The position numbers and the translations under genes were made by a program. DNA of 64,000 nt from Candidatus Sulfopaludibacter sp. (GTDB taxonomy: Bacteria > Acidobacteriota > Terriglobia > Bryobacterales > Bryobacteraceae), in contig JARLGM010000001.1 of the NCBI GenBank assembly GCA_031292755.1, forward strand, positions 1 to 64,000. Reading direction: 5' to 3'. Within the stretch, counting starts at the first letter, position 1. Every line of letters begins with the position of its first letter. Of the stretch, positions 48,850 to 59,758 are shown in pieces. The notes below the pieces were generated by a model that had not been told where the DNA came from, ran no database searches, and worked only from the letters and a program-made list of their open reading frames with translations.

Positions 48850-50433
48850 ATGCCGCGCCGTCTGGGCCGGAAGCTGATGCTTTCGATCACGGTGATTGTC
48901 ATCATCGTGGCCGCAGTTTCAGGCTTGGTCAACGTCAAAACCGAGGAGCAGCAACTCCTCAAAACCATGATTCTGGGGGCGGACCAACTCTCCAAGGGAA
49001 TCACCAGCGCCACCTGGCACGCCATGCTCGACGACAATCGGGAGGCCGCCTACCAGGTGATGCAGACCATTGCGCTGAAGCAGGGAATCGATCGTATCCG
49101 CATCTACAACAGCGCCGGCCAGGTGATGTTCTCCACCAATAGCCAGGACACCCGCAAGGCTGCCGCCACCAAGCTGGATCTGGCTCACCCGGTGCGCTCC
49201 AGCCGCGGCGCCGACGGGTACCGCCGTCTGGAGATGCTCACCCCCATATATAACGAGCGTTCGTGCAGCCAGGCGGCCTGCCACGCACATCCCGCCGACG
49301 TGAAGGTATTGGGCGTGCTGAACCTGGCGCTCAACCTGGAAAGCGTCGATCACGAAGTGGACAGCATGAAGTTTCGCGTGCTGCTGGTGACCGGTGTCGA
49401 AATCACCCTGATCAGCCTGTGCATTATCTTCTTCACGCGCCGGTTCCTGGGGCGGCCCATCGAAAAGCTGATCGAAGGCAGCAAAGCGATCAGCCACATG
49501 GAACTGGACAAGCCGCTCGATCTCGCCGGCAGCAGCGAAGAGCTGGACGATCTGGCGCGCTCTTTCGAAGTGATGCGCCGCCGTCTGCAAACCGCGCTCG
49601 GTGAGATCAATCAATTCACGCAGAACCTGGAAAGCAAGGTGGCCGAACGCACGCAGCAACTCCAGGCCGCGCAGAAGAAGCTGCTGCACAGCGACCGCCT
49701 GGCGTCCCTGGGGCAACTTTCGGCCAGCGTGGCGCACGAGATCAATAATCCCGTCTCCGGCGTACTCAACCTTTCCATGCTGCTGCAGCGCATGCTGAAG
49801 GACGATGGCATTCCGCCGGATCGCATCGAAGAGTTCCGCAAATACCTGGCGCAGGTGGTGAATGAGACCGCCCGTGTGGGCCGCATTGTCTCAGACCTGC
49901 TGGCCTTTTCGCGCCGTTCCAAGCCGCAGCGCACGCCGGCCGACCTGAACAAGATCGTCAGGATGACGCTCTCCCTGGTGCAGCACAAGATGAAGCTCAG
50001 CAATGTGACGGTGGAGCAGGATCTCCGCGAAGACCTGCCGCTGGCGGCCTGCGATGCCTCACAGGTGCAGCAGGTGGTGTTGAACCTGCTGCTGAACGCG
50101 GCCGAGGCCACGCAAAGCAAAGCGGACCGCCGTGTCATGGTTTCCACCGAAGCCGGGAGTGGAGAGGTGCGATTGCTGGTGGCCGACAACGGCGAAGGCA
50201 TCCAGCCGGAAAACCTTGCGAAAATCTTCGACCCTTTCTTCACCACCAAGGCCGAAGGAAAAGGTGTGGGGCTCGGGCTGGCCGTCTCTTACGGAATTAT
50301 CCAGGCGCACGGCGGAGATATTGAAGTGAAGAGCGAGGCCGGCAAGGGCGCCACATTCATCGTCTCATTGCCCCTGGAGCAGTCCGTACCGGCGGGCGAG
50401 GCGCCGCTGGCGGAGCCGGCTGCAAAGGGATGA
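48850..50433 (+). CDS. Membrane sensor histidine kinase with C-x4-C-H sensor motif
   Basis: A 527-residue kinase. TM1 is near residues 10-30 and TM2 near 177-198, enclosing a periplasmic sensor of about 145 residues. That sensor holds ERSCSQAACHAHP at about 136-148, a C-x4-C-H signature that could bind heme or metal. HAMP and a coiled coil (SKVAERTQQLQAAQKKLL) follow, then the His box SVAHEINNPVSG near 296 and an ATPase domain (NLLLNAAEA, DNGEGIQ, GKGVGLGLAVSYG). It belongs to the NtrB/AtoS class that partners with sigma-54 activators. Its stop overlaps the archaemetzincin start. Confidence 0.92.
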   Translation: MPRRLGRKLMLSITVIVIIVAAVSGLVNVKTEEQQLLKTMILGADQLSKGITSATWHAMLDDNREAAYQVMQTIALKQGIDRIRIYNSAGQVMFSTNSQDTRKAAATKLDLAHPVRSSRGADGYRRLEMLTPIYNERSCSQAACHAHPADVKVLGVLNLALNLESVDHEVDSMKFRVLLVTGVEITLISLCIIFFTRRFLGRPIEKLIEGSKAISHMELDKPLDLAGSSEELDDLARSFEVMRRRLQTALGEINQFTQNLESKVAERTQQLQAAQKKLLHSDRLASLGQLSASVAHEINNPVSGVLNLSMLLQRMLKDDGIPPDRIEEFRKYLAQVVNETARVGRIVSDLLAFSRRSKPQRTPADLNKIVRMTLSLVQHKMKLSNVTVEQDLREDLPLAACDASQVQQVVLNLLLNAAEATQSKADRRVMVSTEAGSGEVRLLVADNGEGIQPENLAKIFDPFFTTKAEGKGVGLGLAVSYGIIQAHGGDIEVKSEAGKGATFIVSLPLEQSVPAGEAPLAEPAAKG

Positions 50434-50969
50434 AGTACTTCTACGTCGGCGCGACTCCCGAGGTGGAGCGGCCGCCGTTGGAAGCAGTCCGCCAGCGCAT
50501 GGCGGCGGAATACGGCGCGCCGGTGAAGGAGATTGTTCTGCCCAGCGTCGAGTTCGCGTTCGACACGGGACGGCAGCAGTACCGGTCGATGGATGTGCTG
50601 GAGATGCTGGCCCGGATTTGCCCGGCGGACGCCGCGAAATTGCTGGCGCTTACGGGGCGGGATCTGTTCGTGCCGGTGCTGACGTTTGTCTTCGGGCAGG
50701 CGCAATTGGGCGGCCGCGTGGCCGTGGTATCGCTGGCGCGCCTGCGGCAGGAGTTTTACGGCATGGCGCCCAACCAGGAGATTTTTCTGGAGCGCGCCGT
50801 CAAGGAAGCGCTGCACGAAACCGGCCATACATTCGGGCTGGTGCATTGCTCCGGCCAGCGGTGCGCCATGTCTCTGGCGACCAATGTCCGGCAGATCGAT
50901 GGAAAAAGCGCAGCCTGGTGCGCGGCATGTACGTCGCAGTTACGGCGGGCAAAGGGAGTAATTCGATGA
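50430..50969 (+). CDS. Archaemetzincin-like zinc metalloprotease
   Basis: A 179-residue cytoplasmic metalloprotease-like protein. The extended zinc motif HETGHTFGLVHC, followed by SGQRCAM, matches the HExxHxxGxxH-C-x4-C-x-M signature of archaemetzincins; two more Cys (WCAACTS) are near the end. No signal peptide is visible. It overlaps both the kinase before it and the response regulator after it by four bases. The position between a kinase and its regulator suggests a part in signalling, perhaps cleavage of a component (inference). Confidence 0.9.
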   Translation: MKYFYVGATPEVERPPLEAVRQRMAAEYGAPVKEIVLPSVEFAFDTGRQQYRSMDVLEMLARICPADAAKLLALTGRDLFVPVLTFVFGQAQLGGRVAVVSLARLRQEFYGMAPNQEIFLERAVKEALHETGHTFGLVHCSGQRCAMSLATNVRQIDGKSAAWCAACTSQLRRAKGVIR

Positions 50970-52324
50970 AGACTCACTGGCAGATTCTGGTGGTGGATGA
51001 CGAAGAGGTGATGTGCGAGTCGCTCGCGGCGTGGCTGCGCGAGGACGGCTACCACGTGGACACCGCCGCATCCGGCCGCGAGGCGCTGGAAAAGGCCCAG
51101 CAACGGGATTACGCCATCTATTTCGTCGATCTGAAAATGCCGGGCGGCATGGACGGCATCGAAACCATGATGCAGGTGCGGCGCCTGCACCCCGATGCCT
51201 CCATCATCATCATCACGGCATACGCCACGGTGGACACGGCCATCACGGCAATGAAGGAGGGCGCGCAGGAATACATCGTCAAGCCATGCAATCCGGAGGA
51301 GATATCGCTGCTGGTCAGCCGCATCATCAAGGTGAAGAACCTACAGCGCGAGAACACCATCCTGCGCAAGAAGCTGACGCGGCAGTATCGCGTGCAGGAC
51401 GTGATCAGCAAGAATCCCAAAATGCAGGAGATCCTGGCGCTGGCCCACCAGGTCTCCAGCCTGCGCAGCACCGTGCTGATTCAGGGTGAGAGCGGCACCG
51501 GCAAGGAGATGGTGGCGCGGGCCGTTCATTTTTCGGGCGACCGCGCGTCGAAGCCATTCGTCGCCGTCTCCTGCGCGGCGCTGGCCGAAACCCTGCTGGA
51601 AAGCGAACTGTTCGGCCACGAGAAGGGCGCGTTCACGGGAGCAGGGCAGCAGAAGCAGGGCAAATTCGAAATGGCCGACGGAGGCACCATCTTCCTGGAC
51701 GAAATCGGCGACATCTCTCCCAAGCTGCAGGTGGATCTGTTGCGCGTGCTGCAGGACCGCAGCTTTTACCGGGTGGGCGGATCCCAGGTGGTGAAGGTGG
51801 ATGTGCGGGTGATTGCAGCCACCCATGTAAATCTGCAGCAGGCGGTGGCCGACGGCGACTTTCGCGACGACTTGTTTTACCGGCTGAACGTGATTGAAAT
51901 TCGTATTCCGCCGCTGCGCGACCGGCGCGAGGATATCCCGCTGCTGGCCGCGCACTTCGTGGAAAAACTCGCGCACGAGCTAGGACGCGATGCCGGAGAG
52001 ATCTCCGAAGGCGCCCTCAAAGTGCTGATGGCCCACGACTGGCCAGGCAATGTGCGGGAACTGGAGAATGCCGTGGAGCGGGCCATCGTGACCTGCCACT
52101 CCCGCACGCTGACGGAAGAAGATTTCTCCTTCCTCATGGAGATTCGGGAATCCGCCAAACCTGTGACGATTCCAGCGGGGATGACCATGCAGGAGATGGA
52201 GCGGTTGCTGATCGTCGAGACGCTGCGCCGTGCGAGTGGCAACATCAAAGAGTCCGCCGCCACCCTGGGAATCGACCGCTCGACGCTCTACGAAAAGATC
52301 AAGAAGTATGAGATTCCGCGGTGA
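50966..52324 (+). CDS. Sigma-54-dependent NtrC/AtoC-family response regulator
   Basis: A 452-residue regulator: a receiver domain (VVDDEE, phospho-Asp in FVDLKMPGGMDG, Lys in VKPCNP), an AAA+ domain with Walker A GESGTGKE, the sigma-54 contact loop GAFTGA, Walker B GGTIFLDEIGD and the arginine finger region, and a Fis-type HTH at the end (GNIKESAATLGIDRSTLYEK). AAAGGGAG precedes ATG 50966, which overlaps the archaemetzincin stop. It is the likely partner of the kinase at 48850 and may act on the sigma-54 promoter at 59786. Confidence 0.96.
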   Translation: MKTHWQILVVDDEEVMCESLAAWLREDGYHVDTAASGREALEKAQQRDYAIYFVDLKMPGGMDGIETMMQVRRLHPDASIIIITAYATVDTAITAMKEGAQEYIVKPCNPEEISLLVSRIIKVKNLQRENTILRKKLTRQYRVQDVISKNPKMQEILALAHQVSSLRSTVLIQGESGTGKEMVARAVHFSGDRASKPFVAVSCAALAETLLESELFGHEKGAFTGAGQQKQGKFEMADGGTIFLDEIGDISPKLQVDLLRVLQDRSFYRVGGSQVVKVDVRVIAATHVNLQQAVADGDFRDDLFYRLNVIEIRIPPLRDRREDIPLLAAHFVEKLAHELGRDAGEISEGALKVLMAHDWPGNVRELENAVERAIVTCHSRTLTEEDFSFLMEIRESAKPVTIPAGMTMQEMERLLIVETLRRASGNIKESAATLGIDRSTLYEKIKKYEIPR

Positions 52325-52337
52325 TGGCGGCCCGTCG

Positions 52338-52598
52338 TCACACGAGGCGATCGTATTCGGTGTGACTGCCGATCCAATACCAGACGATACGATCTTTTTT
52401 CATGACTGCCAGGGCACGGTGGTCAAGACCGATGCGAGCCGAGTAGATGTCGTCTTCGCCCTCCAGTTTCTTGAATTGTAAACCGGGGTGTGCCGGGTTG
52501 TTGCGGAAGAGACGGTAGGCGCGTTTTGCGTCCCGTTGCGCGTCGAGGGGAAGATCCGAAAACAGACGCCAGAACTTCCGAGTAGTCCGAGATTGCAT
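52338..52598 (-). CDS. RelE/ParE-family toxin
   Basis: An 86-residue basic protein of the RelE/ParE fold (KFWRLFSDLPLDAQRDA, PGLQFKKLEGEDDIYSARI, DHRALAVMKKDRIVWYWIG). Such proteins cleave mRNA on the ribosome or poison gyrase; the subfamily is not decided. It starts directly at the base after the antitoxin stop. The 3' end faces the response regulator with 13 bases between stops. Confidence 0.82.
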   Translation of the reverse strand: MQSRTTRKFWRLFSDLPLDAQRDAKRAYRLFRNNPAHPGLQFKKLEGEDDIYSARIGLDHRALAVMKKDRIVWYWIGSHTEYDRLV

Positions 52599-53333: not shown

Positions 53334-54161
53334 CTACCCCTCCAGGAACATCTCGCCGCAGACCGCATCCCAATCCGCCTGGGGATAAGCCTGGGACATA
53401 TCCGCGATGGGGACGCCGCCGTCGGCCAATGCCGGAGCCGCGCCTTCGGCGGTGAGAGTCAGTTGCAGCCGTTCCAGTTCCCGCATGAGCCACGGGCGCA
53501 CTTCCGCCCCGCGCAGCAGGTGACGAAACGCGGGTTCGCCGGAGGCCGCGGGCCGCACTCTCAGGTACCATCCGGCGCCGGGAGCGCCCGCTTCGAGCAC
53601 CTCCCCCTCCACGGGGGAAAGCACGCGCACATCCGCGCCGTGCTTGTGAACGCGGAACGCCGTGCCGTTCACCTCGATCTGCGAGCCCACCGGCGGCAGC
53701 GCCACCTGGCCGGGAGTTCCCAACAGCCTGGAGCCTAAGTCGTCCAGCCCCACCGTCACCGTGCCGTCGCTCTCAGGGCGCACCCAGGTGTGCCCGCGAT
53801 GGTACAGGCGATCCAGCGGAAATGACATCCCGAAGATCTCCTCTTCCTCACCCGCGGCCACCGGGTGGCCCTCCACGAGCCGGGCATGCGTTTCGCACTC
53901 CCGGCAGTCGAAGGAATGCGGGCACTCACGGCTTTCCAACTCCCCGGTGAGTACGTGGCGGCAGGCGCGATCGCGAGCCGGCAGGTCGTTAAATTCCGAA
54001 TGCCAGCGGATGCGCTCCAGTTTGCGCGAGCGCAGGTCCTGGCGCGAGCGCAGGGCCGCACTCACCAGTGTGGTGGCGACAATCACCAGCACCGTATAGA
54101 ACGCTCCCAGAAACACGATGTGTCCGGCATCCAGATGAAATCCATAATTCCAAGGCAACAT
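53334..54161 (-). CDS. Membrane-anchored, GcvH-like protein (degenerate lipoyl domain)
   Basis: A 275-residue protein. A TM helix (GHIVFLGAFYTVLVIVATTL, residues 12-34) is followed by Arg/Lys-rich sequence, so the rest should face the cytoplasm. A Cys cluster (CRHVLTGELESRECPH, then DCREC) may hold a metal. Residues 130-215 resemble glycine cleavage H protein (YHRGHTWVRPESDGTVTVGL, LSPVEGEVLEAG), but in the alignment the lipoyl-lysine position is Gly, with a Lys two residues earlier. It is the last gene of the Qrc-like operon. GGAGATACGC precedes ATG 54161. Confidence 0.8.
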   Translation of the reverse strand: MLPWNYGFHLDAGHIVFLGAFYTVLVIVATTLVSAALRSRQDLRSRKLERIRWHSEFNDLPARDRACRHVLTGELESRECPHSFDCRECETHARLVEGHPVAAGEEEEIFGMSFPLDRLYHRGHTWVRPESDGTVTVGLDDLGSRLLGTPGQVALPPVGSQIEVNGTAFRVHKHGADVRVLSPVEGEVLEAGAPGAGWYLRVRPAASGEPAFRHLLRGAEVRPWLMRELERLQLTLTAEGAAPALADGGVPIADMSQAYPQADWDAVCGEMFLEG

Positions 54162-54172
54162 ATGCGTATCTC

Positions 54173-55426
54173 CTAACGCTCCCTGACGGCCGCGGCTCCG
54201 AATTTCAGTTCCCGCTCCGAGGGAAAGAGCTGGAAGTACCGGAACGAGAACGAGTAGACCAGAACGCCGAACGCCACCACCGCCAAAAACGTGCCGGTTT
54301 CCTGCCAGCTTGGGAAGTAGGAAAGGTACCGGTCGAAGGAAAGCGTGGGCAGCGCCAGTGTCTGCACCGTCATCACGAATCGATTGAGCGCCACTCCGGC
54401 GCATGCCATGGCCGCGGCGGCGACCAGCCATCCGGTGCGCGCCCGCAACTGCGGCGCGAGCAGAATCAATGCGGGGACCAGGCCGAACAAGACGATTTCG
54501 GCAAACAGGATCCAGGTGCCGAACGGCTGCCACGAGTAGTATTGCGCCGCCGGAAATCCGATCTCCGGCGAGGTGCGATTGATCCAGATGAGCGTGTCTA
54601 CCGTTTTGGCCAGTACATAGACCGCCAGCAGCAGTCCGGAAATCCGGCCCAGCAGACCGAACACTTCCGGCCGCACCAGGTTCTTGCGGCTGATCTTTTC
54701 CACCAGCCAGGTAGTCAGCAAAATAAAGCTGGGACCCACCGCCGCCGCCGAAAGAATGAACAGGAAGAACGTGGACGGCCACACCGCAAAGCCTTCCCGA
54801 AACGCGAAGGGCCGGCCGCGCAGCACGCCATACAATCCGCCGAGCGAGCCCTGGTGGAAGAACGAAAGGAACGTGCCCACGCCCGCCAGCACGTAGACCA
54901 GCTTGTGCAGTTCGAATTCGAATACCAGGAATGAAGGCACCTGGCGCAGTTTCCGATTCTTCAGCACGATGGGCACATACTCGATGGCCAGTACGGTGAG
55001 GTAGCAACTGATGCAGAAGGTGACTTCGGTCAGCATGGAATGCACGTTCGGATACCAGAAGGTGAACCACGCGCGCAGCGGCTGGCCGACATCCACTGCC
55101 AGCACGCAGACCGCGCCGGTATAGCAGACCAGCCCGATCACCACGGCGCTGTTGATGACCGCCCGCAGTTCCTTCAGCTTCAGAATGTACAGGAGGAAGC
55201 CGGTGAAGAACGCACCCGCTCCCAGCGCGATCACGGTGAGGTCCAGGAAAATCCACAGGCCGAACGCAAAGCGGTTGTCCATATTGGTCTGGTTCAGGCC
55301 TTTCACCAGGCAGAGACCCGCCGAATAGAGGCCGAACGCCAGCAGGGCGGCCCAGGGAAGGATCCACAGCAGGAACTTTCCGGTAGAGCAGCGCTTCACG
55401 CCGCGAGGGATGAGTTGCCTATCCAC
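54173..55426 (-). CDS. NrfD-family quinone-interacting membrane subunit (QrcD-like)
   Basis: A 417-residue integral membrane protein with about ten TM helices of the NrfD/PsrC/ActC type (FGLWIFLDLTVIALGAGAFF, YTGAVCVLAVDVGQPLRAW). It is expected to exchange electrons or protons with the quinone pool. GTG 55426 follows AAAGGAG and overlaps the ferredoxin gene end by 8 bases. Its order after MopB and Fe-S genes fits QrcD or ActC/F. Confidence 0.9.
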   Translation of the reverse strand: MDRQLIPRGVKRCSTGKFLLWILPWAALLAFGLYSAGLCLVKGLNQTNMDNRFAFGLWIFLDLTVIALGAGAFFTGFLLYILKLKELRAVINSAVVIGLVCYTGAVCVLAVDVGQPLRAWFTFWYPNVHSMLTEVTFCISCYLTVLAIEYVPIVLKNRKLRQVPSFLVFEFELHKLVYVLAGVGTFLSFFHQGSLGGLYGVLRGRPFAFREGFAVWPSTFFLFILSAAAVGPSFILLTTWLVEKISRKNLVRPEVFGLLGRISGLLLAVYVLAKTVDTLIWINRTSPEIGFPAAQYYSWQPFGTWILFAEIVLFGLVPALILLAPQLRARTGWLVAAAAMACAGVALNRFVMTVQTLALPTLSFDRYLSYFPSWQETGTFLAVVAFGVLVYSFSFRYFQLFPSERELKFGAAAVRER

Positions 55427-56213
55427 GGTGGTTCTCCTTTCCGGCTTCGTGCTGCCCGGCGAAGGGATGCGGCGCATTGGCGCTCGCGCGCACCCAGTCG
55501 CGTTTCGACCGGTAATAAATCTTGGGATCGGTATGGAGCTTTTCCAGCAGGCGGAAACTGCCGCCGCTCTGCGCGGCACGTGCCGGCGCGCCGGCGGGGT
55601 CGTTGAGATCGCCGAACTGAATGGCTTTGATGGGGCAGGCTTCGGCGCAGGCGGGCAGGTACTGCACCGGCTCGGTGTCCGGCTTTCCCTCGGCCGCGGC
55701 CTGCTGCTTGGCGGCGTGCCAGCGGCCGTGACAGAAGTTGCACTTTTCCACCACGCCGCGCATTCTCGGTGTCACGTCGGGATTCAGCGTCTTCTCCATG
55801 CCTTTGGGCCACGCCGGATCCCACCAGTTGAAATAGCGCGCATGATAGGGGCAGGCGGCCATGCAATAGCGGCATCCCAGACAGCGCTGCGGCATCTCTC
55901 CCACCACGCCGGTGGCCGGGTCCACGTCCACCGCCTGCTGCGGGCAAACATGGACGCAGGGCGTTTCATTGCCACAGTGCTGGCACATCACCGGAATAAA
56001 TGCCGACCGGGTTTCCGGATACGGCAGGCCGTTATCGATCTTATACACGCGGATCCACGTAATGCCGTTGCGATCCGTCGCGCCCGCGTGCGCCGGCGGC
56101 ACGTTATTTTCGACCGCGCACGCCACCATGCAGGCGCCGCAGCCCGTGCAGCGATCCACGTCGATGGTCATGCCGTAGCGCGCGGCCCGAATCTGTTTGT
56201 TTGGTCCAATCAT
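55419..56213 (-). CDS. Four-cluster ferredoxin-like Fe-S subunit (QrcC/HybA-like)
   Basis: A 264-residue protein with several [4Fe-4S] binding motifs: CTGCGACMVAC, CQHCGNETPCVHVC, CLGCRYCMAACP, and CNFCHGRW with CAEACP. It has no signal peptide and is probably exported together with the Tat substrate encoded just upstream. ATG 56213 overlaps the MopB stop by 4 bases (ATGA). It should pass electrons between the MopB subunit and NrfD. Confidence 0.92.
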   Translation of the reverse strand: MIGPNKQIRAARYGMTIDVDRCTGCGACMVACAVENNVPPAHAGATDRNGITWIRVYKIDNGLPYPETRSAFIPVMCQHCGNETPCVHVCPQQAVDVDPATGVVGEMPQRCLGCRYCMAACPYHARYFNWWDPAWPKGMEKTLNPDVTPRMRGVVEKCNFCHGRWHAAKQQAAAEGKPDTEPVQYLPACAEACPIKAIQFGDLNDPAGAPARAAQSGGSFRLLEKLHTDPKIYYRSKRDWVRASANAPHPFAGQHEAGKENHRG

Positions 56214-58018
56214 GCCCGTACCACCTTTGCCCGCGGCGAAGAGCCGCACAAATCCAACGTGCGCGGCCCGGCCGCCACCTGCACCACGCCCTGCGGAGAG
56301 CCCGGGTCCTCACAGACCAGCACGTCGAGCCGGCCGCAACCGGCCTCCAGGATGGCCCTGCCGCCATCTTCAACTCCGCATTCCCTGGCGACCGTGGGAT
56401 GAAGCACCACGCGGTCCTCCGCGAGCCGCAGGTTGGATTCCTGATACATTTTGGAAAGAATCGGCGAACCCAGCCCGGCCGGCGCTTCGGCCATCACCAC
56501 CGCCAGCGGAAGATTGTCCGCCGTGAGTGTCGCGGCCGGCGGCCCGAACGCCAGCTTGGGGATCTCCTGCCGTTCCGGTACCGCGTCCATCCAGCATCCG
56601 CCTTCATTCAGCGCCTTCCAGAAGCCGTCCGCCTTAACGTCTTTCAGGGCGGTCGATTTCGCGTCGGCATAGGTGAATAAGGTTCCCCGGCCGGATTTGT
56701 GGATGGCATCGGCGCGTTCCCGCAGAGTGTTCGTTGCGGAGATCTGAGCCAGGGCGGCAACGAACTCCGCCGGATTCACCACATCGGCCGGCGGCGGCAC
56801 CAACGCAGCCGAAAGCCGGAACATGGCGGCCGGCGAATCCACCGCGGCCGGGATGTCATCCACCATTTCCGGATACACCGCGGTGGGCAGGACGAATTGC
56901 GCGTGCCGCCCGTACCCTTCGCCCGACCAGGCGAATGCCACCACCACCGGATTCTCCGCAACCAGCTTCTTTTCGACGGCGCTCCAGGGCAGGTACGGTC
57001 CCGGCGCCGATTCGTCGATCAGCAGGACGCGCACCGAACCATCCGGCACCGCACTCAGTTCCGTTGCGGCCACGGCATTTTTCCACTCGGCGGGGACCGG
57101 CGCTTCGCGGCGCATCACAATAGTGTGCCCCAGGCTGCCCACCAATTGATTCAGCGCCAGAATTTCGGGCCGCTCCCGGGCATCCAACACCAACGCCGGA
57201 CCGTTATCGGCCAATTCCCGTGCCGCGGCGACAATCTGCGCCTCGGTCAGTCCGGTTTCGAGGGCCGCGTCATGCAGAGGCTGGTTGCCCAGCACGTTCG
57301 CGATGGCGCGCGCCAGTGCCGGTTCCGACCCGGGCCGAATGGGGAGCCACTGGTCCGCCATGACGGCGGTTCGCGATTCCACCGTCTCGGCCTGAATCAG
57401 CCGGAAGCCTTCGCGCGCCGCGATCACGTTGCCCGGCGTGCCCCAGCCGTCCAGCAGGGGAGTCCCGAAGCTGAGGACCGTCTTAGCCGCCGCCAGGTTC
57501 ACCGCCAGATTCCCGCCCAAGGTGCGCGGCGGCGTCAGGTACGTGCCGTTCTTCCACTGCGCCAGCGCGCGCCGGTAGGTCCACGAAGCCGTGCGCCCGG
57601 GCCGCAGATCCAACACGGCGATTCGTTCGTTCGCAGCGCAGCGCGCCAGGGCACTCGCAATTGCCGCGGCTGCCTGTTTCACGGGACCCTGTGCGATCCG
57701 CGCGGGATGGTACGGAAGATGATGCCCCGCCAGGCCAAACGGGCACAGCGCGCCGTGCGTAAACGGGTGCTCCAGAACTCCCATCAGCGCCACAGGCTGC
57801 TCGCCGACGCAGCGGGCGCGCACCGCGCACCCCGCCGGACAGAGCGAGCAATTGGTGTACTTGGCGCGAATTTCCCCGCGCGCCGGGCGCGGCACTCCGG
57901 GCCAGGTTTCCGACCAGAGCGCGGTATCCGTGACCAGCCGCCACGGAGCCGGCGTAAACAGGGCGCCCACTGCCGCGCCGCCGGCTAACTTGAAAAGATC
58001 TCTTCGGGTGGATGTCAT
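56210..58018 (-). CDS. Tat-exported molybdopterin oxidoreductase-fold protein (QrcB-like)
   Basis: A 602-residue protein with a twin-arginine signal (STRRDLFKLAGGAAVGAL), an N-terminal [4Fe-4S] motif (CSLCPAGCAVRARC) and a MopB-type body. At 602 residues it is shorter than formate or nitrate oxidoreductases; in Qrc and ACIII the corresponding subunit carries no Mo cofactor, and I see no clear metal ligand here, so it may only relay electrons (inference). A strong AGGAGG lies just before ATG 58018. Confidence 0.88.
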   Translation of the reverse strand: MTSTRRDLFKLAGGAAVGALFTPAPWRLVTDTALWSETWPGVPRPARGEIRAKYTNCSLCPAGCAVRARCVGEQPVALMGVLEHPFTHGALCPFGLAGHHLPYHPARIAQGPVKQAAAAIASALARCAANERIAVLDLRPGRTASWTYRRALAQWKNGTYLTPPRTLGGNLAVNLAAAKTVLSFGTPLLDGWGTPGNVIAAREGFRLIQAETVESRTAVMADQWLPIRPGSEPALARAIANVLGNQPLHDAALETGLTEAQIVAAARELADNGPALVLDARERPEILALNQLVGSLGHTIVMRREAPVPAEWKNAVAATELSAVPDGSVRVLLIDESAPGPYLPWSAVEKKLVAENPVVVAFAWSGEGYGRHAQFVLPTAVYPEMVDDIPAAVDSPAAMFRLSAALVPPPADVVNPAEFVAALAQISATNTLRERADAIHKSGRGTLFTYADAKSTALKDVKADGFWKALNEGGCWMDAVPERQEIPKLAFGPPAATLTADNLPLAVVMAEAPAGLGSPILSKMYQESNLRLAEDRVVLHPTVARECGVEDGGRAILEAGCGRLDVLVCEDPGSPQGVVQVAAGPRTLDLCGSSPRAKVVRA

Positions 58019-58028
58019 GGTGGGCCTC

Positions 58029-58601
58029 CTATTTGTGGCAGTCCAGGCAACTGTGTTCCAGCCCCTGCTGCCGGTGGCATTCCACGCAGGCGCTCATGGT
58101 CATGGCCGCGCGCGTGGTCTTCACGCGGTCCGCCGTCTGCCAGATGTTGCGGGAGTAGCCGCTCACGCGGTCTTCCTGGTACGGCAGCAGATGGTCGGAC
58201 GCGCCGTGATCGCCATGGCAGGTGTCGCACGTAAGTTGCGCCCGCTTCACATGCGCGATGTGGCTGAAGAAGACGTTCTCCGGCTGCCGCGCGTACACCG
58301 CCCATTGCGGTTCGCGCGCGGGCGTAACGTACTGCTCGACAAAATTCTTTTCCGCCACCGTGGCGCCCATTACCGCGGCATGACAGCCGGCGCATTTGTC
58401 CAGAGTGGGGATGCCGGCGAACGTTCCATCGGGACGAAACGCGTGACAATCCTCGCATTTCTGGCCAGCCTTATCGGCGTGGACCTTGTGACTGAAATCC
58501 ACCGGCTGAGGCCGGCTCTTGTAAATGGCGCGGGGAAACCCCGCCCACCCTGCCACCAGCATGATTGCCGCGCCGGCCGCAAATGGGAATATTCCGCGCA
58601 T
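58029..58601 (-). CDS. Pentaheme cytochrome c (QrcA/cytochrome c7-like)
   Basis: A 190-residue exported or membrane-anchored cytochrome. An N-terminal hydrophobic segment (FPFAAGAAIMLVAGWAGF) is followed by five CXXCH motifs (CEDCH, CAGCH, CDTCH, CVECH, CLDCH) and several distal His (SHKVHADK, SHIAHVKR). It would exchange electrons with periplasmic carriers. The ATG follows the previous stop without a gap, and the MopB gene begins 10 bases after its stop. Confidence 0.9.
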   Translation of the reverse strand: MRGIFPFAAGAAIMLVAGWAGFPRAIYKSRPQPVDFSHKVHADKAGQKCEDCHAFRPDGTFAGIPTLDKCAGCHAAVMGATVAEKNFVEQYVTPAREPQWAVYARQPENVFFSHIAHVKRAQLTCDTCHGDHGASDHLLPYQEDRVSGYSRNIWQTADRVKTTRAAMTMSACVECHRQQGLEHSCLDCHK

Positions 58602-59495
58602 TCAGACTCTCTTTCCGCTCGCGTAGGGCGAGAAAAATTCATGAAACAGCACGCGCAGCCAGTCGCCATCCAGATGGTGCGCCAGGCCTTCCGCAAACAG
58701 GCCGCCGTCGGACATGGTGCCCGAGCGTGCCGCCTGCTCCTGCTGGAGAAACTCGTTCATGCGCCGCTGTTCGGTTTCCATCCAATGCCGCGCCGCCGGG
58801 CCTTGCATCAGGTTCTCCGCGGTCTCCGGCAGAGGCCGGCCTTCGAACAGCCACCCCGTGGTGTAAGGGTCGCAGGTGATGCGCGAGGGATTGGCCCGCA
58901 GGTAGAGATTGCAGCCGGTCAGCAGGATGGCATTGGGGAACATCACTTCCAGGTCCACGCCGTTTACGGTCAGCACCGCGGCCGGCCGGGTGCGCCCTTT
59001 CAATTGCACGAAGGTGAGCCGGTCGACCGGCCCCAACACGCGGCTGAGAAACGCATCGATGCCGACGTGGCACATGCCGTCTTCGCCCATGTCCAGCCAC
59101 ATGTGATTGGCGGTGTAGCGGAGCCGCTCCGGCATGGCGAGCCCTTCCACTTCCTCCGAAGGAACGCCGGGCTGAGCCATCGAAAGGTACAGTTCGCAAT
59201 AGCGGAAGCTATCGTTGCCGCAGCGCGAGAGCAACGATTCGCTATAGGGCACCAGCTTCGCCACCGGCGCCGCCGCGCAATACTGCATCAGCGATTCCCG
59301 CAGGAACGGGCAGGGCCCCTGGTCCGCCGATTCTTCGAGCGGCTGCGTTTGAAACACCTTACAGGTGCGATATTCCCCGGACGAGCATTTCTCTTCGGTC
59401 CGGCCGGCCTGCGCCAGGGGAATCAGCTTCCGGACAGCAGCAGTCCGGCAGTACTTGACCTGGGCTTCTCTGAGGAAGGGGCAGGTCATACGCAT
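58602..59495 (-). CDS. Cys-rich, GcvH-like protein
   Basis: A 297-residue cytoplasmic protein. Residues 5-100 contain two copies of a module C-x10-C-x(n)-C-x7-C (CPFLREAQVKYC with KCSSGEYRTC; CPFLRESLMQYC with RCGNDSFRYC), a plausible metal or Fe-S site. Residues 120-215 resemble GcvH (MPERLRYTANHMWLDMGEDG, GIDAFLSRVLGPV) but the usual lipoyl-lysine region lacks Lys. No known activity. It overlaps the previous gene by one base (TAATG). Confidence 0.75.
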   Translation of the reverse strand: MRMTCPFLREAQVKYCRTAAVRKLIPLAQAGRTEEKCSSGEYRTCKVFQTQPLEESADQGPCPFLRESLMQYCAAAPVAKLVPYSESLLSRCGNDSFRYCELYLSMAQPGVPSEEVEGLAMPERLRYTANHMWLDMGEDGMCHVGIDAFLSRVLGPVDRLTFVQLKGRTRPAAVLTVNGVDLEVMFPNAILLTGCNLYLRANPSRITCDPYTTGWLFEGRPLPETAENLMQGPAARHWMETEQRRMNEFLQQEQAARSGTMSDGGLFAEGLAHHLDGDWLRVLFHEFFSPYASGKRV

Positions 59496-59758
59496 TACCG
59501 CTCCTCTTCTTTGTCGAGCTTCTCGCCGCCGTCCGCCATGGTGAGGCCAAGCCCGGGAGTGTGAAACGCGTGTCCATCCTGGAAGGACGCCACCAAGTCA
59601 GCCACCTCGCGGTCCAACTGCGACAACGCGACCCGCTTCTTGCGCCTCGCGGAGACTTCCTGCAGGACACCGATGCCCACCGCAATGCAGCAAATCAGGA
59701 CTACAACGCCTAACGCCGCATTGGTGAGAGTCAGCCAATAAGTCGAAGGATCATTCAC
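59495..59758 (-). CDS. Small single-TM protein, first gene of the Qrc-like operon
   Basis: An 87-residue protein with one TM helix (LGVVVLICCIAVGIGVL) and a cytoplasmic charged tail (EVSARRKKRVALSQLDREVA). GTG 59758 is used because GGAAAGGAG precedes it; the longer frame upstream is unsupported. Role unknown; probably a complex assembly or anchoring subunit. Confidence 0.7.
   Translation of the reverse strand: MNDPSTYWLTLTNAALGVVVLICCIAVGIGVLQEVSARRKKRVALSQLDREVADLVASFQDGHAFHTPGLGLTMADGGEKLDKEEER

Follow-up and report, generated by a model that had tools for sequence, protein, structure and literature searches.

A Qrc-like operon with GcvH-fold proteins that lack the lipoyl lysine: a possible cytoplasmic module of NrfD-type membrane complexes

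Why should the operon of a Qrc-like quinone reductase be flanked by genes for proteins related to GcvH, the H protein of the glycine cleavage system? The question is raised by a locus of Candidatus Sulfopaludibacter sp. (Acidobacteriota; assembly GCA_031292755.1) within the window analysed here, which is the first 64,000 nucleotides of contig JARLGM010000001.1. Seven genes on its minus strand (53334-59758) encode, in this order, SmTM, GcvL1, QrcA, QrcB, QrcC, QrcD and GcvL2, and neighbouring genes overlap shortly or are separated by at most 11 bases. An initial annotation, made from the letters alone, had described this tight arrangement, and the coordinates bear it out. Among NrfD-type systems, Qrc alone has been shown by direct evidence to be electrogenic (PMC13059093). 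Its QrcD subunit was reported to be restricted to Deltaproteobacteria (PMC8076601), and one acidobacterial metagenome-assembled genome (MAG) with QrcD has been reported since (PMC10564751). We suggest, with a probability of about one half, that the GcvH-like proteins belong to a lipoyl-free cytoplasmic cap or docking module, structural or regulatory, which sits on complexes of the Qrc and Hmc type and in which an ADGG tail is the shared docking element.

The central four genes follow the QrcABCD order, as had been proposed. QrcA and QrcD score above the NCBIfam equivalog cut-offs, and QrcB and QrcC match their models below them (Table 1). Five CxxCH motifs are found in QrcA, a number shared by all 62 relatives counted, and the cysteines of QrcC are arranged as four groups of four. 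QrcB has a Tat-type N-terminus (TSTRRDLFKLA) and a weak match to Pfam Molybdop_Fe4S4 (22.9 bits); its presumed MopB fold is a label drawn from the family match. The operon holds one NrfD gene together with the Qrc-type set, and not the subunits of alternative complex III (ActA-F, with two NrfD subunits).

The arrangement extends well beyond the window. Genome contigs were scanned with a profile made from a QrcD alignment, and the named loci are the best 80 of 456 relatives, which cover the closer end of the family. QrcD loci span Bryobacterales and other Acidobacteriota, MAGs of Ignavibacteria and other Bacteroidota, KSB1, Eisenbacteria, Kryptoniota and Myxococcota; the qrc loci of Desulfobacterota are left out of the samples. 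A locus was taken as testable where the contig leaves sequence room for the neighbouring gene, and open reading frames (ORFs) of the relatives were called by simple rules, their start codons being guesses. Among the best 80, GcvL2 stands directly after QrcD in all 76 testable loci, with a median gap of 10 bases, and SmTM and GcvL1 are present in 48 of 50, the exceptions being L107 and L126 (Myxococcota). Genome samples, which partly overlap with the loci and are counted separately, gave GcvL2 with 18/18 QrcD across a class sample of 119 genomes, 3/3 in 141 genomes from the phylum of a Myxococcota MAG and 5/5 in 247 genomes from the window's phylum. Recurrence of the same gene order in dozens of genomes and several phyla rules out chance or an artefact of annotation. 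A Qrc variant is now seen in at least four further phyla, always with the putative cytoplasmic module, of which the literature searched makes no mention. A second, closely related copy of GcvL2 adjoins the first in G289:C452, G308:C84, G258:C85 and G269:C51, and the extra copy in G258 contains two in-frame stops.

The relationship of both flanking proteins to GcvH is supported by sequence as well as by predicted structure. Pfam GCV_H (cut-off 22.2 bits) is matched by GcvL1 with 26.7 and by GcvL2 with 34 bits; the NCBI cut-offs for GcvH itself (115.85 or 117 bits) are not reached, the best scores being 34.6 bits for GcvL1 and 38.3 for GcvL2. AlphaFold (AF2) models built from alignments of 47 (GcvL1) and 51 (GcvL2) sequences had mean pLDDT values (predicted local distance difference test) of 91.0 and 90.8, and solved GcvH proteins were the top Foldseek matches for both: 3a8i_E for GcvL1 (E 6.7e-9, TM-score by target 0.84) and 1onl_A for GcvL2 (E 4.7e-9, TM-score by target 0.78). 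VIA-align gave Z 14.9 for the GcvL1 model, with a root-mean-square deviation of 1.8 over 123 residues, and profile searches of PDB sequences also found GcvH (E 1.1e-11 and 1.4e-15). Searching the PDB with the whole models of GcvL1 and GcvL2, which barely probes the Cys modules, returned only matches of the GcvH/lipoyl type worthy of note. Judged from these models, both GcvL proteins are of the GcvH fold. In the alignment, the column of the lipoyl lysine is occupied by Gly in both window proteins, and Lys appears there in 1/58 relatives of GcvL1 and 5/80 of GcvL2. The absence of the lipoyl lysine, claimed by the initial annotation, is upheld by this alignment, which finds no conserved Lys at the site and rules out a lipoylated GcvH as the identity of these proteins. 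The annotation 'glycine cleavage system protein H' is, for some proteins that bear it, a misnomer. The window's own genome also has a normal GcvH (L001), and a 352-aa open frame (L002, 817-1872) encodes a GcvH domain in which the lysine is kept (ESAKAVFEII).

Three further features stand out in the proteins around QrcABCD. The first is cysteine: GcvL1 has two modules (C5 C16 C37 C45 and C62 C73 C92 C100), all eight residues being invariant in 47 sequences, and the four residues of the GcvL2 module (C67 C80 C86 C89) are likewise invariant, a pattern that suggests putative metal binding. The second is a C-terminal DGG, typically (L/M/A)ADGG, common to SmTM (56/57 relatives), GcvL1 (57/57) and GcvL2 (76/79); in the last 60 residues of the Qrc subunits from the same loci it occurs in no QrcA and in one case each of QrcB, QrcC and QrcD, and canonical GcvH proteins in the sample have no such tail. 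The third is topology. K+R is more frequent on the C-terminal than on the N-terminal side of the transmembrane (TM) helix in 78/78 GcvL2 and 57/57 SmTM proteins. Because positive charges follow the helix, both are predicted to face the cytoplasm, which would place the GcvH domain and Cys module of GcvL2 and the ADGG tails opposite QrcA-C, in keeping with the cytoplasmic arm suggested earlier. SmTM, with a GTG start codon placed after AGGAGAAG, has no match in Pfam or NCBIfam. Both types of Cys module are also seen in other GcvL loci, either fused or as small free-standing proteins. Examples of the latter are L045 5122-5424, L041 3876-4172 and L165 7437-7955, the last ending in LQDGG; these proteins gave no match in Pfam and, in NCBIfam, only one far below cut-off (13.3/70 bits).

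GcvL proteins are not confined to Qrc. In the class sample mentioned above, 40/44 Hmc-like NrfD genes, which scored 134-200 bits against the QrcD model, have a same-strand GcvL gene no more than 3 kb away, and 28 have two or more; the window's own genome contains a second GcvL locus of this Hmc-like kind (C202, L040). Viewed from the GcvL side, 118/143 matches of that sample have an NrfD gene at a distance of 6.5 kb or less. In the window's phylum, where loci were picked from the best search matches and the fractions describe that selection, 42/54 GcvL of the DGG type are within 5 kb of NrfD, as against 1/11 canonical GcvH. GcvL relatives that lack the DGG tail frequently lie in other places, 6/15 being near NrfD. 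For the DGG type, the counts of 42/54 and 118/143 rule out that GcvL occurs mostly outside the NrfD context. The Hmc-like branch, the shared ADGG motif, SmTM as a third cytoplasm-facing member and the linked genes described below go beyond what had initially been noted.

How might such a module work? According to published work, QrcCD takes protons from the cytoplasm and uses them to reduce menaquinone on the periplasmic side (PMC13059093). We picture the operon as encoding a variant menaquinone-reactive Qrc complex in which, like in characterised Qrc, QrcD would be embedded in the membrane and QrcA, QrcB and QrcC would occupy the periplasmic face, and to which SmTM, GcvL1 and GcvL2 would add a module at the cytoplasmic face. 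The module would be anchored through one TM helix each of GcvL2 and SmTM, GcvL1 docking from the cytosol. Without a lipoyl arm, the GcvH folds may be non-catalytic domains for protein docking, with the ADGG-type tail as a common docking motif, and the module would most likely hold or gate QrcD on its cytoplasmic side, where protons are taken up, or report on its state. The initial annotation had proposed a redox or metal-binding arm that senses or couples the complex. Its metal-binding half fits the invariant Cys quartets, and a direct electron path is disfavoured: NrfD-like subunits have no redox cofactors (PMC8076601) to bridge the membrane, so a transmembrane route for electrons from the Cys modules through QrcD has been set aside. 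Physical association, docking, and gating or reporting are all inferred steps. If the module does cap, gate or read the proton-uptake side, it would provide a handle on the control of NrfD complexes.

Several observations weigh against this proposal. GcvL1 is absent from L134 (Myxococcota) and L135, which stand outside the 50-locus count, as well as from L107 and L126, and is therefore dispensable. In the class sample, 25/143 GcvL matches have no NrfD gene within 6.5 kb, and in the window's phylum several relatives likewise lie away from any NrfD gene. One type of GcvL, at L053, is beside an FeFe-hydrogenase-like sensor kinase. Gene order and conservation, moreover, would fit a role in maturation or in signalling as well.

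A signalling role is suggested by the genes that converge on the window operon: a sensor histidine kinase, an archaemetzincin-family protein and a sigma-54-type response regulator (Table 1). This trio is conserved beside Qrc-like and Hmc-like GcvL loci alike. The GcvL proteins might accordingly be adaptors that read redox or quinone state and pass it to the heme-sensor kinase and sigma-54 regulator, the archaemetzincin serving as a processing or binding partner. In the window's phylum, the kinase, regulator and archaemetzincin neighbour 35, 38 and 33 of the 54 DGG-type GcvL and 3, 0 and 0 of 11 canonical GcvH, and in two loci where no NrfD gene was found nearby, L053 and L154, the trio adjoins a GcvL that has both Cys modules. 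Against this, among the 54 Qrc loci whose contigs reach far enough downstream, the kinase and the regulator were each found in only 28 (the archaemetzincin in 25), whereas GcvL2 always accompanies QrcD, and the trio may merely control expression of the operon. We regard the adaptor role as a serious rival, though rather unlikely. A broader idea is also doubtful, though slightly less so, and is put forward tentatively: DGG-tailed, lipoyl-free GcvH-fold proteins with undescribed four-Cys modules could be a general cytoplasmic accessory of Qrc- and Hmc-like NrfD complexes in many phyla, tying the state of the complex to a circuit of kinase, archaemetzincin and sigma-54 regulator. The literature searched yielded no relevant paper in which archaemetzincin is paired with a histidine kinase. 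The window kinase carries CSQAACH (CX4CH), as against one CxxCH in 28/36 related kinase frames, and this is a possible unusual heme site. Between the operon and the regulator lies an 86-aa ORF (52338-52598, minus strand) with a likeness, by eye, to RelE-type toxins.

Alternatively the three proteins could be maturation factors, cytoplasmic chaperones for cofactor insertion or Tat export of QrcB and QrcC (and of HmcB), like the redox-enzyme maturation proteins. The Tat-type signal of QrcB and the four Fe-S cluster motifs of QrcC would provide clients for such factors, GcvL1 is soluble and rich in Cys, and GcvL2 and SmTM are predicted to face the cytoplasm. GcvL2 and SmTM are, however, membrane-anchored by conserved TM helices, and characterised Qrc has been described without GcvH-like proteins (PMC8076601, PMC13059093); we consider this explanation unlikely. 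That the proteins actively carry a lipoyl group, attached to a lysine at a shifted position, and thereby form a dithiol relay is very improbable: the window GcvL2 does have a lysine (K173) two positions ahead of the lipoyl site, but this position is Lys in 28/51 GcvL2 and Arg (11/51), Thr or another residue in the remaining 23, so that a conserved modified lysine is unlikely, and 56/58 relatives of GcvL1 have no Lys within two columns of the site.

Table 1. Genes of the operon and of its surroundings in the window, with one related locus
Feature	Position	Strand	Evidence and remarks
Sensor histidine kinase, c-heme-like sensor region	48850..50433	+	Pfam HATPase_c, HisKA, HAMP, Mcp40H-20_sensor
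Archaemetzincin-family protein	50430..50969	+	PF07998; NF033823 150.7 bits, cut-off 145
Sigma-54-type response regulator	50966..52324	+	ORF; homologue at Hmc-like locus identified by Pfam
GcvL2	53334..54161	-	N-terminal TM, one four-Cys module, GcvH-like domain (about 114-230), ADGG 246-249
QrcD, NrfD-family integral membrane quinone-reactive subunit	54173..55426	-	NF041784 581.8 bits, cut-off 570
QrcC-like four-cluster ferredoxin	55419..56213	-	16 Cys; NF041782 348.8 bits, below cut-off 400
QrcB-like Tat-signal, molybdopterin-oxidoreductase-like protein	56210..58018	-	NF041783 148.5 bits, below cut-off 440
QrcA-like pentaheme cytochrome c	58029..58601	-	NF041781 208 bits, cut-off 180
GcvL1	58602..59495	-	Soluble; two four-Cys modules and GcvH-like domain (about 119-242); DGG 263-265
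SmTM	59495..59758	-	First operon gene; 87 aa, one TM, LTMADGGE motif at C-terminus
Locus L053 with a kinase fused to an FeFe-hydrogenase-like domain	L053 2328-4355 and 6583-7731		Near archaemetzincin, sigma-54 regulator and GcvL

Comparison with known systems helps to define what the GcvL proteins are. They share fold and sequence profile with GcvH, from which they differ in having no lipoyl Lys (ESVKAxS hairpin) and in their Cys modules, TM helix and DGG tail. A literature search for GcvH-like proteins with Qrc, NrfD or Hmc found nothing relevant, most subscription papers being outside its reach. A GcvH-related protein of Desulfobacterota, NF045810 (cut-off 150), is matched weakly by other GcvL proteins (22.1-45 bits) and, at E 0.001, not by GcvL1 or GcvL2 of the window. 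LbpA of Hdr-like sulfur oxidation is a precedent for a GcvH-like protein in energy metabolism beyond glycine cleavage (PMC6067878), but LbpA binds lipoate and GcvL lacks the lysine. The lipoyl-like domain of NqrA, from the membrane quinone reductase Na+-NQR, gave a weak and partial structural match to GcvL2 (8a1y_A, E 0.046), for which homology is not claimed.

The membrane complexes themselves provide the closest parallels. With Hmc (HmcABC) there is the likeness that the GcvL family also flanks HmcB/HmcC-like genes, and the N-terminus of one GcvL matches HmcD below its cut-off (30.4 bits vs 34); the window complex has QrcD instead of HmcC. With QrcABCD of sulfate-reducing Desulfobacterota it shares the A-B-C-D order and the subunits A and D recognised by the equivalog models. 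The window QrcA has five heme motifs, in contrast to the six hemes of characterised Qrc (PMC8076601), and the variant is found in Acidobacteriota, Ignavibacteria and other Bacteroidota, KSB1, Eisenbacteria and Myxococcota MAGs. The system would work like Qrc, yet the scores of QrcB and QrcC, the heme count and the three added, apparently cytoplasm-facing proteins set it apart as a variant.

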